Source: Litoreibacter ascidiaceicola
GTDB lineage: Bacteria > Pseudomonadota > Alphaproteobacteria > Rhodobacterales > Rhodobacteraceae
Assembly (NCBI RefSeq): GCF_900129235.1
Contig: NZ_FQUV01000002.1
Location: 434,001-498,000 of the forward strand
Length of the DNA stretch: 64,000 bases
Reading direction: 5' to 3'
Part shown: piece after piece, positions 19,251-22,529 of the stretch
How the letters are laid out: each line of letters begins with the position of its first letter
Numbering within the stretch: position 1 is the stretch's first letter
Notes under the pieces: model-generated
Told to the model about the DNA's origin: nothing
Seen by the model: the letters and a program-made list of their open reading frames with translations, nothing else
Databases searched by the model: none
Program-made: the position numbers and the translations under genes

Positions 19251-19976
19251 ATGACCGATGCCTCCAAGACGACCTACAAACGCGTTATGTTGAAAATCTC
19301 CGGCGAGGCATTGATGGGGGATCAGGGATTCGGGCTGCATCCCCCAACGGTGGAACGGATCGCCCGCGAGGTGCAATCGGTCCACGAAATGGGCGTGGAA
19401 ATCTGCATGGTCATTGGTGGCGGCAACATTTTCCGCGGGCTTCAGGGCTCCGCGCAGGGGATGGAGCGGACGACGGCGGATTATATGGGCATGCTGGCCA
19501 CGGTGATGAATGCGCTGGCGATGCAGGGTGCGCTGGAAAGTCTAGGCATCCACACGCGGGTGATTTCGGCGATCACCATGAACGAGGTGGCCGAGCCCTA
19601 TATCCGCCGCCGCGCCGTGCGGCACTTGGAGAAGAAGCGCGTGTGCATCTTTGCCGCCGGAACGGGGAACCCTTACTTTACCACCGACACCGCCGCGACG
19701 CTGCGCGCCAACGAGATGTCGTGCGAGGCGATCTTCAAGGGCACCAAGGTCGACGGCGTTTATGACAAAGACCCCGCCAAGCATGACGACGCGGTGCGCT
19801 ATGACAAGGTCAGCTTTGATGACGTCCTGCAAAAGCGTCTTGGCGTGATGGACGCGTCCGCCATCGCACTGGCCCGCGACAACGACCTGCCGATCATCGT
19901 ATTCTCGCTGGACGAGCCGGGTGGCTTCAAAGGCATTCTGGCGGGCGAGGGGACGTATACGATCGTCGCGGATTGA
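19251..19976 (+). CDS. pyrH: Uridylate kinase (UMP kinase)
   Basis: Phosphorylates UMP to UDP, feeding pyrimidine nucleotides and UDP-sugars for cell-wall and lipid A synthesis. The 241-residue amino-acid-kinase-fold protein has [14 protein letters not shown] at the N terminus, [10 protein letters not shown], the MNEVAEPY segment, [16 protein letters not shown] and [10 protein letters not shown], all typical of bacterial PyrH. ATG at 19251 is chosen because it follows AGAAAGG and gives the standard N terminus. In most relatives frr follows directly; here 1.99 kb separate the two, filled by a toxin-immunity-like cluster. Confidence 0.97.
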
Positions 19977-20034: not shown

Positions 20035-20298
20035 ATGCTGACACTAACACCTGAGATGAAGAGTGCTTTGAATGACGAAGCACACAAAAAGAACGACCAC
20101 CAATTCGCGCTTCGGCTCAAAGATTGGTCGCCATCGCGGTTTGAGGCAATTAGCGACACGCAGCTTTCCGAGCAGGTCGGTTACGCGCGCAGGATTGCCG
20201 CATCCTTTGGCGTGCAAGCACCCTTGATGCGCGCCCGCTGGGTTATGATACACACCTGCCTTGCCCCCGACTTCTGGCGCAACGAAGCCGTGTATTGA
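20035..20298 (+). CDS. Small helical protein, possible T6SS-locus companion
   Basis: An 87-residue protein without signal peptide or membrane segment: acidic/basic N-terminal helix (LTPEMKSALNDEAHKKND), then a segment ending in SEQVGYARRIAASFGVQAPLMRAR and a short hydrophobic helix MIHTCLAPDFW. This pattern of helix, YAR/xxxYG helix and a final LGxDF-like end resembles short proteins found beside type VI secretion effectors, but the match is from memory and weak. An in-frame TTG at 20002 would lengthen it. It precedes, in the same direction, a Tox-REase-5-like gene, so a role as chaperone or adaptor is possible. Confidence 0.5.
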   Translation: MLTLTPEMKSALNDEAHKKNDHQFALRLKDWSPSRFEAISDTQLSEQVGYARRIAASFGVQAPLMRARWVMIHTCLAPDFWRNEAVY

Positions 20299-20408
20299 GA
20301 CCCTGACCGCAAAAACCGGCTCTGCCGATATCCGGTTTGGTGACGTTTGCGCATGTATGAAACTGATGCTGACCGATGCCGGTCGCGGTGCTGAGGTTTG
20401 GTGGTAGG

Positions 20409-21137
20409 ATGGCGGGACCTGCGGCAGCACGATGTATTGAAGTCCCGCTCCCCGGCGCGATCCTTGAGATTTGTGTAGGGCCGCCGCCGCCCGCGCCAGA
20501 CCTTCCGCCTGTCGAGTTTCCCGAGATCGGGCCTGACTTGCCGCCAGTGGATTTGCCGGACGTGGATGCCGGACCCGATACGGGCGCTGATATCGAGGCT
20601 CAATCATCGGCCGACACCAGAACAGAAATTTGCACCGAGGGATGCGTCGACTGCATCGCCGCACAGGCAGGCACCATCTTTCAGCGCACGTACTCCACAA
20701 CGCAGAGGACGCAAGTTCTTGGGTATAGGTACCAAAACCGGGTCATCCGTGCCAAAGGTGTAGGTCAGTTCTTCCCTCATGACCCGGCTACGGGGACTAT
20801 TTTCGAATGGATATATGCTGGCGTGAAATTCGATGGGCTAGTGCCGCATATTTGCAGGCTTCTAGAAGCCAAATGGGGCCATGATAGCTGGTTTAGGGAT
20901 GCCTTCAGCGAAGGCGGGCGCCCGACGATCCGAGACCAGTTCATCGAGAACGTACTTATGCCGAAAATCTTTGAGGAGGCTGTGCGGCACTATGGCGTCG
21001 TGCGTCCCGTTCATCCGGATGTCACGCTCGTATGGGTCTTCAGCGAAGTCGTTTTCAAAATCTTCATGTATGAGTTCTTCATTGGGCCGTTGACGCCGGG
21101 CGATATGTCGCTGGTTATCGAAACCCAAATTCTGTGA
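20409..21137 (+). CDS. Putative nuclease effector, Tox-REase-5 domain
   Basis: A 242-residue protein in three parts. Residues 1-25 are hydrophobic (MAGPAAARCIEVPLPGAI). Residues 25-60 are a proline-rich acidic linker (PPPPAPDLPPVEFPEI). Then comes a CTEGCVDC cysteine cluster and a domain matching the restriction-endonuclease-fold toxin Tox-REase-5: YRYQNRVIRAKG, EWIYAGVKFDGL and LLEAKWGHD, which supply the Asp and Glu-x-Lys of a PD-(D/E)xK nuclease site. Related proteins such as Pseudomonas TseT are type VI secretion DNase effectors. No PAAR or VgrG part is present. ATG at 20409 has GAGG ten bases upstream. Rare codons (ATA, CTA, AGG) appear in this gene, hinting at acquisition. Confidence 0.7.
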   Translation: MAGPAAARCIEVPLPGAILEICVGPPPPAPDLPPVEFPEIGPDLPPVDLPDVDAGPDTGADIEAQSSADTRTEICTEGCVDCIAAQAGTIFQRTYSTTQRTQVLGYRYQNRVIRAKGVGQFFPHDPATGTIFEWIYAGVKFDGLVPHICRLLEAKWGHDSWFRDAFSEGGRPTIRDQFIENVLMPKIFEEAVRHYGVVRPVHPDVTLVWVFSEVVFKIFMYEFFIGPLTPGDMSLVIETQIL

Positions 21138-21149
21138 TCGGAGCGCAAT

Positions 21150-21896
21150 ATGAGTATCGACCTGTCCATAAACGCCGTGTACGCGCCCTTAAGATGGGCG
21201 CTGCCTGACGCGGTATCAGCGTTCCAACAGCTATTGCAGGCGCTGAGCCAGACACCGTTTTGCGAGGATACCTGGTGGGTCGAAACGCCGCGCGGGGAAG
21301 GGGATGATGCCCGCCTTGATGCATTGGGGCAGGTGTCCGATCTGGTCGCTTGGTTCGAAGAGCGTGAAGCGATGATCTTCGATGGTGAGGACCGCGTGGG
21401 GCCGCGCACGGTCTACGCGTCGGGAGGCGCCGAAACCGCGCGACGTTACAAGCTACAACTGTCTTGGGATGCCCAGTTCGGCCAAAGTGGGCTGACCTTC
21501 GACATTTTCGCCCCACACCCTCAACGCGGACTGACCGCGGCCCTTATGAGAGATGTCTGCGCGGCGATAATTGACTGGCAACGTCCTATGCACATAAACG
21601 GAATGCCGACGCGCTACCGGGCGGAATACCATCCGCTGGATGTCGCTCGCTTGGGAGTAGGATGGCTTGGATGGGTTCCTTTTGAAGTAGCCCGAGGCAA
21701 CCTCCCAGAGGCTGAAATCATAAATGCGATGTCCTGGGGCACATTTGTGGCGTCTCAAGCAGACTATTGGGCAGCATCCGGCCCTCAAAAAAACGCGGAT
21801 GCAATTGCGCGTGCGCAAGCCTTGGACCTTCGTCTGAACCAGTTGGGGGTGTTGCCCACATCAGTGGAACTGGAACGTGGCGATTGGGGACGCTAG
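21150..21896 (+). CDS. Putative immunity protein (Imm52-like)
   Basis: A 248-residue cytoplasmic protein, no signal or membrane segment. It starts 12 bases after the toxin gene with GGAG upstream of ATG. Position, size and the recurring tryptophan/aspartate-rich pattern (FCEDTWWVETPRG near residue 36, YKLQLSWDAQFGQSGL, and GWLGWVPF) agree with Imm52, the immunity family that accompanies Tox-REase-5 toxins. The assignment rests mostly on the neighbouring toxin; sequence similarity was not tested. Its expected job is to bind and block the nuclease in the producing cell. Confidence 0.6.
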   Translation: MSIDLSINAVYAPLRWALPDAVSAFQQLLQALSQTPFCEDTWWVETPRGEGDDARLDALGQVSDLVAWFEEREAMIFDGEDRVGPRTVYASGGAETARRYKLQLSWDAQFGQSGLTFDIFAPHPQRGLTAALMRDVCAAIIDWQRPMHINGMPTRYRAEYHPLDVARLGVGWLGWVPFEVARGNLPEAEIINAMSWGTFVASQADYWAASGPQKNADAIARAQALDLRLNQLGVLPTSVELERGDWGR

Positions 21897-21965: not shown

Positions 21966-22529
21966 ATGTCTGAAGACTTCATGCTCGACACCGACGATAT
22001 TCAACGCCGTATGGACGGCGCGATGGCATCCTTGCGGACCGAATTCGGCTCGCTGCGCACCGGGCGCGCATCGGGATCAATGCTGGAGCCGGTGATGGTC
22101 GATGCCTACGGCTCCATGACCCCGATCAACCAAGTGGGTACGGTGAACGTCCCGGAGCCGCGCATGGTGACGATCAATGTGTGGGACAAGGGACTTGTCG
22201 GAAAAGTGGAAAAAGCCATTCGGGAGAGTGGCTTGGGGATCAATCCTCAACTAAACGGCACGATTATTATGCTGCCGATCCCTGAATTGAACGAAGAGCG
22301 CCGCCGCGAGTTGACCAAGGTGGCGGGCCAATACGCAGAGCATGCCCGTGTGGCGATCCGCAACATTCGCCGTGACGCGATGGATCAGATCAAAAAGGCC
22401 AAGGCTGACGGGATGAGCGAGGACGACCAGAAATTCTGGGAGTCCGCAGTTCAGGACATGATCGACGCGCAGATCAAGCTGGTGGATCAGGCGCTAGAGA
22501 ACAAGCAAGAAGAGATCATGCAAGTTTAG
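21966..22529 (+). CDS. frr: Ribosome recycling factor
   Basis: Acts with EF-G to split post-termination ribosomes. The 187-residue protein is full length and has the RRF hallmarks LRTGRAS (domain I helix), [21 protein letters not shown] (in domain II), [24 protein letters not shown] and the long C-terminal helices ending EEIMQV. ATG at 21966 gives the expected N terminus [11 protein letters not shown]. Normally adjacent to pyrH; here displaced by the toxin-immunity insert. A hairpin follows the stop codon, so uppS may have its own promoter as well. Confidence 0.97.

Follow-up and report, generated by a model that had tools for sequence, protein, structure and literature searches.

A predicted Tox-REase-5 nuclease and its putative immunity protein in the variable pyrH-frr gap of Litoreibacter ascidiaceicola

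Introduction

What is a toxin gene with its putative antidote doing between the core genes pyrH and frr of a bacterium in which markers of the type VI secretion system (T6SS) were not found? The locus lies in a stretch of 64,000 nucleotides, here called the window (G000:C11:434001-498000). G000 is the window's own genome, that of Litoreibacter ascidiaceicola (3.74 Mb in 22 contigs, 99.98% complete). The parts of the locus are ordinary, and the place is unusual. This site was not found in searches of open-licence PMC papers. One fixed chromosomal address, followed through 19 genomes of one genus, presents the cassette, a decayed copy, alternative toxin tips and empty sites. It lets one ask what becomes of an effector-immunity pair after the loss of its secretion system, and whether defence is what preserves the antidote.

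Gene content of the pyrH-frr gap

The gap is bounded upstream by pyrH (UMP kinase, positions 19251..19976; Pfam AA_kinase, 4.5e-31) and downstream by frr (ribosome recycling factor, 21966..22529; Pfam RRF, 5.8e-61); 148 of the 149 family genomes searched have a match to each of the two. In the window, the pyrH and frr matches lie 1992 bp apart, whereas the median gap of 146 genomes is 96.5 bp. All genes of the locus are on the plus strand: a frameshifted small gene, the gene of the predicted nuclease effector (242 aa, 20409..21137) and, after a spacing of 12 bases, the gene of the putative immunity protein (248 aa, 21150..21896). A first-pass annotation of the sequence had noted the odd core location and the lack of a secretion gene nearby. 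The location and, for the gap itself, the lack of such a gene are supported; the coordinates, gene order and motifs (a proline-rich linker, CTEGCVDC, KFDGL and LLEAKWGHD) are as it described them. Of its three-gene cluster, the toxin and immunity ORFs stand as intact, but the first ORF is the N-terminal piece of a gene whose frameshift had been overlooked. Three-frame translation places the N-terminal part of this small gene (87 aa, 20035..20298) and its C-terminal part (20299..20407, start approximate; DIRFGDVCA...EVWW) in different frames, and the latter stops 1 base before the ATG of the toxin. The small gene is the sole broken cassette gene in the window, with a frameshift that rests on one assembly, and the toxin and immunity frames are open. 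The GC3 of the toxin (0.624) and immunity (0.613) genes lies at the low end for the window, at ranks 2 and 0 of 54 ORFs with a GC3 of 0.695 +- 0.043. Such codon use fits foreign or weakly expressed genes.

The nuclease and its partner

The 242-aa protein is a predicted Tox-REase-5 nuclease effector, the identity that it had been given at first pass. The HMM search called for there yielded 36.4 bits against Pfam Tox-REase-5 (PF15648), above the cut-off of 25, with an E-value of 7.7e-9. Residues 1-82 hold the linker and the CxxC motif, and residues 107-213, the span of the Pfam match, the nuclease domain. PF15648 matches 10 of 10 members of the toxin alignment, including that of the window, at E <= 0.01. 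The toxin family profile (10 sequences) matched 7dym_A at 2.5e-17, over the proline-rich linker, the CxxC motif and the nuclease domain, and 9oz0_B at 3e-13. PD-(D/E)xK nucleases have a catalytic Asp and an E/D-x-K motif. The active-site candidates in the window toxin are D142, E153 and K155. D142 and K155 are invariant in all 10 aligned toxins, and position 153 is Glu in seven, Asp in two and Gln in one. The last is a Tox-REase-5 relative in G063:C1 (L029:7107-8114), with Gln for the Glu of the E-x-K motif. AlphaFold2 models were poor, with a mean pLDDT of 46.4 (4 sequences) and 46.6 (5 sequences).

The 248-aa protein matched no Pfam family. It is called Imm52-like because the Imm52 model of Pfam matches 0 of 10 members of the immunity alignment. 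The immunity family profile (10 sequences) matched the solved Imm52 proteins 7dym_B, 9owg_A and 6jdp_A at 2.5e-8 to 3e-8, in the C-terminal half only, and the uncharacterized 4rho_A at 4.1e-12. We take 7dym and 6jdp to be TseT/TsiT structures; the database listing names only Tox-REase-5 and Imm52. The 248-aa protein is thus a putative immunity protein, distantly Imm52-like. The original label holds up against the solved structures, though not in the Pfam search.

The locus resembles TseT-TsiT of Pseudomonas aeruginosa in its Tox-REase-5 nuclease, proline-rich linker, CxxC motif and Imm52-type immunity protein. The gene order, with a further small gene ahead of the toxin, is presumably also shared. 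Unlike TseT-TsiT, the gap of the window contains neither a PAAR gene nor a DUF4123 adaptor gene, the small gene is frameshifted, and the genome has no match to TssB or to Phage_GPD, the Pfam family matched by VgrG and used here as a VgrG marker. According to PMC11925235, TseT depends on PAAR4, on the chaperone TecT and on a co-chaperone.

The small gene and T6SS adaptors

A Pfam search of the 87-aa ORF gave no match. The small gene is one continuous ORF in the congener G411 and in G081 (Nereida sp. MMG025), and in G147, from another genus, it is covered by two overlapping contig ends together. Over 90 residues, the window small protein shares 50% identity with the uninterrupted G411 protein. 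A homologue makes up the C-terminal part of DUF4123 proteins of 335-352 aa (L034, L031 and L033; DUF4123 matches of 1.4e-17 to 4.5e-24), and this fused form directly precedes Tox-REase-5 and immunity genes in G147:C70, G310:C3 and G364:C5. DUF4123 proteins are T6SS adaptors. We infer that the small gene encodes a T6SS loading partner, co-chaperone-like in function. DUF4123 itself was not found by Pfam among the ORFs of the window gap. A frameshift common to the window and G063 was considered and rejected, as the shift from one frame to the other is not the same in the two decayed genes.

Because of the family profiles and the DUF4123-fused homologues of the small gene, the locus is read as a TseT-like T6SS cargo cassette that has no PAAR or adaptor gene with it. 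The cassette is probably TseT-type T6SS cargo, lodged in a variable pyrH-frr pocket and stranded in its own genome. In a T6SS-bearing host, a DUF4123 adaptor would act with the partner domain to place the toxin on PAAR/VgrG for injection into a rival, whose nucleic acid the nuclease would cut. In the producer and its kin, the toxin would be bound by the immunity protein.

T6SS markers and delivery

The absence of a T6SS from the own genome is judged from two markers, TssB and Phage_GPD, neither of which was found. The genome has a single PAAR, at C11:196091-196297, about 258 kb from the cassette, which adjoins a 146-aa ORF resembling DUF2345 below its cut-off. The PAAR profile also matches control genomes of Synechococcus and Methanosarcina, and the own PAAR is therefore no proof of a T6SS. 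The proposal of the first-pass annotation that the toxin is delivered by a system elsewhere in the genome is left unsupported by these results; the genome search that it suggested gave no VgrG (Phage_GPD), and one PAAR, distant from the cassette. This lone PAAR (L027:1471-2214, minus strand) and the DUF2345-like ORF upstream of it form an isolated spike-tip-like pair. It is scarcely probable that the toxin works as an effector, brought out via the lone PAAR and the DUF2345-like ORF by a contractile system that escaped detection. That the two adjoin speaks for it. Against it stand the failure to find the sheath subunit TssB or Phage_GPD, the lack of a PAAR beside the toxin, the frameshifted loading gene and the PAAR matches in the control genomes. 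A T6SS missed by the 22-contig assembly is unlikely. In its own genome, the cassette would thus be stranded, with no TssB/VgrG found, PAAR and adaptor not adjoining and the loading gene frameshifted. The toxin is probably no longer injected from its own strain, and delivery looks lost.

The other carriers differ from the own genome in this respect. The immunity profile detected the family in 7 of 394 family genomes, own included, and a search with the toxin sequence detected relatives in 5 of 295, one of them a weak match in G270. TssB is present in six of the six immunity carriers other than the own genome, a count that leaves out G270 and the congeners G411 and G394, which were found later. 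The base rate of TssB is 34 of 149 family genomes, and three of the six carriers are among the 34. At this rate, six of six would occur with a probability of about 1.4e-4, uncorrected for relatedness. G270 has a toxin match of 3.7e-4 with three stops inside, and neither an immunity match nor TssB. G171, a congener that lacks the cassette, has no TssB.

The intact toxin and immunity frames, kept despite the missing TssB/Phage_GPD matches and the broken loading gene, could also point to a domesticated, non-secreted pair that acts inside the cell as a toxin-antitoxin or anti-phage module. We think this unlikely. None of the three cassette proteins was matched by PADLOC, which searches with anti-phage defence profiles, and all six other carriers in the 394 family genomes have TssB. 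Moreover, the small, toxin and immunity genes have all decayed at the same site in the congener G394, which speaks for loss of use.

The pyrH-frr gap as a variable pocket

Although pyrH-frr is among the most conserved gene pairs, it is not closed to insertion in the family. The survey took one genome from each of 146 genera, in which pyrH and frr share a contig and a strand; G102 and G147 (pyrH and frr on different contigs) and G033 (no match) were left out. The gap is at most 410 bp long in 124 of the 146 and at least 876 bp in 22, the window included. The long gaps elsewhere house unrelated cargo in those read. Twenty of the 22 were fetched and the ORFs of 19 were read. The 133.8-kb gap of G043 was not among the 20, and the 15.2-kb gap of G002 was searched by tblastn, outside the ORF listing. 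Related AraC-type regulators occupy the gap in five other genera (L042, L044, L045, L047 and L048), and the further cargo includes one Hint protein, RTX-like and Trk-like ORFs (labelled by eye) and others.

Within the genus, 20 of 21 genomes were matched, and 19, own included, have both genes on one contig. The cassette is found in three of these 19 (G000, G394 and G411), a Hint gene only in six, a radical-SAM gene in two and another ORF in one; seven gaps are empty, at 82-171 bp. Hint_2 is the commonest insert at the site in the genus; the six Hint-only gaps were assigned to it by Pfam for G396 and by homology for the rest. A Hint_2-type protein is encoded on the minus strand in the gaps of G396, G397, G399, G402, G406, G410, G394 and G134, that is, in seven congeners and one other genus, and the copies are 37-45% identical to that of G396. 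The radical-SAM gene, of the B12-binding type, is found in G404 and G171 (L089:1247-2932 and L091:9455-11134). The G171 gap has about 8 kb of further genes as well, among them a transposase-like ORF recognized by eye. In G401, pyrH and frr are on different contigs with a piece of a radical-SAM gene beside each (L096/L097). A cassette-specific insertion site was rejected because the pocket also houses Hint, radical-SAM, AraC-type and other genes.

The cassette at this site is not confined to the genus. In G147, pyrH, the small gene, toxin, immunity gene and frr follow one another over two contigs with overlapping ends. In G063, from another genus, a remnant consists of the small gene in two frames and the C-terminus of the immunity protein. 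The gap of G063 has no toxin match, and a further cassette lies elsewhere in the genome. The spacing in the window is thus unusual, as had been expected, but not unique, since congeners and two other genera have the same gene order or a remnant. Nor is it general: the three genes are far from being shared by all Rhodobacterales, with the cassette at the site in 3 of the 19 genomes of the genus, one of the three copies decayed, and, whole or as a remnant, in two other genera.

The first interpretation of the locus was one horizontal gain into a locked gene pair. The 22 of 146 genera with long gaps and the variable pocket in the genus lend it no support. An ordinary one-off insertion with no further history would agree with the low GC3 of the toxin and immunity genes, and with the pyrH+frr tree, in which the two nearest branches differ in pocket content (G398 empty, G396 Hint). 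We hold it to be very unlikely, given the same order at the site in G411, G394 and G147, the remnant in G063 and a toxin front common to the congeners.

Phage and plasmid records

A phage or plasmid origin of the cassette was rejected on the absence of relatives in phage and plasmid records. By tblastn, neither the toxin nor the immunity protein had a match in 50,697 phage and 72,556 plasmid records, collections that may leave out the own genome. The L023 immunity protein and the L025 small protein also found nothing in the plasmid records. Searching IMG/VR with the toxin produced seven pattern stretches, none of them a relative. The toxin (1.2e-12) and the immunity protein (5e-5) do match PHROG families of unknown function, and distant phage relatives therefore exist.

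A possible vehicle is seen in G081:C13 (L037), a contig of 6,835 bp with the order small gene, toxin, immunity gene, PAAR and DUF4123. This contig also bears a Mob_Pre relaxase and a further ORF whose helix-turn-helix matches are weak and do not reach their cut-offs. No overlap was found between its ends, and it cannot therefore be called a circular plasmid. PAAR adjoins the cassette in G081 and not in the window. T6SS orphan islands on plasmids are described in PMC13098142. G081:C13 is like them in its cargo set next to a relaxase, whereas the window copy lies between chromosomal core genes and has no PAAR, VgrG or Hcp.

Exchange of toxin tips and antidotes

The window toxin is a mosaic: its front is like that of the same-site congeners, and its nuclease tip is like that of a distant relative. 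For residues 1-40, 40-77 and 150-242, its identity is 51, 73 and 30% to the toxin of G411 and 53, 49 and 29% to that of G147; G394 gives 70% over residues 40-77 and 29% over residues 150-242. The toxin of G166:C343, from another site, shows the reverse, with 32, 27 and 47%. At the sites that distinguish G411 from G166, the window toxin sides with G411 in 30 cases and with G166 in 4 as far as residue 100, and in 10 and 30 cases, respectively, beyond it (Fisher p 3.4e-8 for cut 100; the four cuts tried span 5.3e-6 to 3.4e-8). Replacing G411 by G147 gives p values of 3.2e-4 to 7.4e-5. Four controls gave 0.089, 1, 0.0018 and 1. The 0.0018, obtained with G081, is in the opposite direction, and because of it low-complexity linkers are taken to distort the test somewhat. 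At the same site, toxin tips therefore differ between G000 and G411/G394.

The immunity genes tell a similar story. G411 has two at the site, the only genome with a retained second one. Over residues 1-115, the second is 41-47% identical to the window immunity protein and the first 17-20%, and over residues 180-248 both are similar to it (57 and 59%). The immunity mosaic has p 0.00055 at cut 115 (0.0075 to 0.00017 over four cuts), and its three controls gave 0.35, 0.04 and 0.26. The simplest history would be that one toxin tip and its antidote were replaced by another, with the older antidote left in G411. The present toxin would have arisen by such a tip exchange, in which the front remained that of the same-site congeners, and another type supplied the nuclease tip together with the N-terminal half of the immunity gene.

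In G394, the small gene contains stops, the toxin has one at codon 11, the immunity gene is frameshifted, and behind the decayed cassette lies a Hint gene. The idea that G394 also retains part of a second immunity gene was rejected, as the 105-bp match lies in the C-terminal end of its only immunity gene.

In Vibrio cholerae, effectors are sequentially displaced and orphan immunity genes are retained (PMC5361080). G411 is similar in that its fixed site holds a pair of a different type, with a foreign-type immunity gene downstream, and in its mosaic genes. The pyrH-frr locus is unlike it in its site, in the lack of a T6SS gene seen in the gap and in the unrelated genes, or nothing, found there elsewhere.

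These genes bear on a further reading, in which the immunity gene is the selected part, a defence against the T6SS of relatives, and the toxin is passive baggage. The second immunity gene of G411 is of the window type and stands at a site that lacks the corresponding toxin tip, and the orphan immunity genes retained in V. cholerae (PMC5361080) are a parallel. At the own site, however, the toxin is also kept open and no orphan immunity gene is present. We consider this reading possible and rather doubtful; it overlaps with that of a stranded T6SS cargo cassette, and the two are not exclusive. For the stranded cassette, the window immunity protein presumably still neutralises the toxin, and it may give protection from relatives that have a T6SS and share the tip.

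A more speculative extension, improbable as a whole, is that the pocket is a long-lived exchange site where cassettes outlive the T6SS and swap tips or keep antidotes through recombination in the flanking core genes. In species lacking a T6SS, the intact pair would then be a stand-alone module of self-addiction or defence.

Another nuclease with two immunity proteins is described in PMC13392607. In G310:C22 (L032:4908-5941), two tandem immunity-like matches lie behind a Tox-REase-5-like match, possibly an antidote array.
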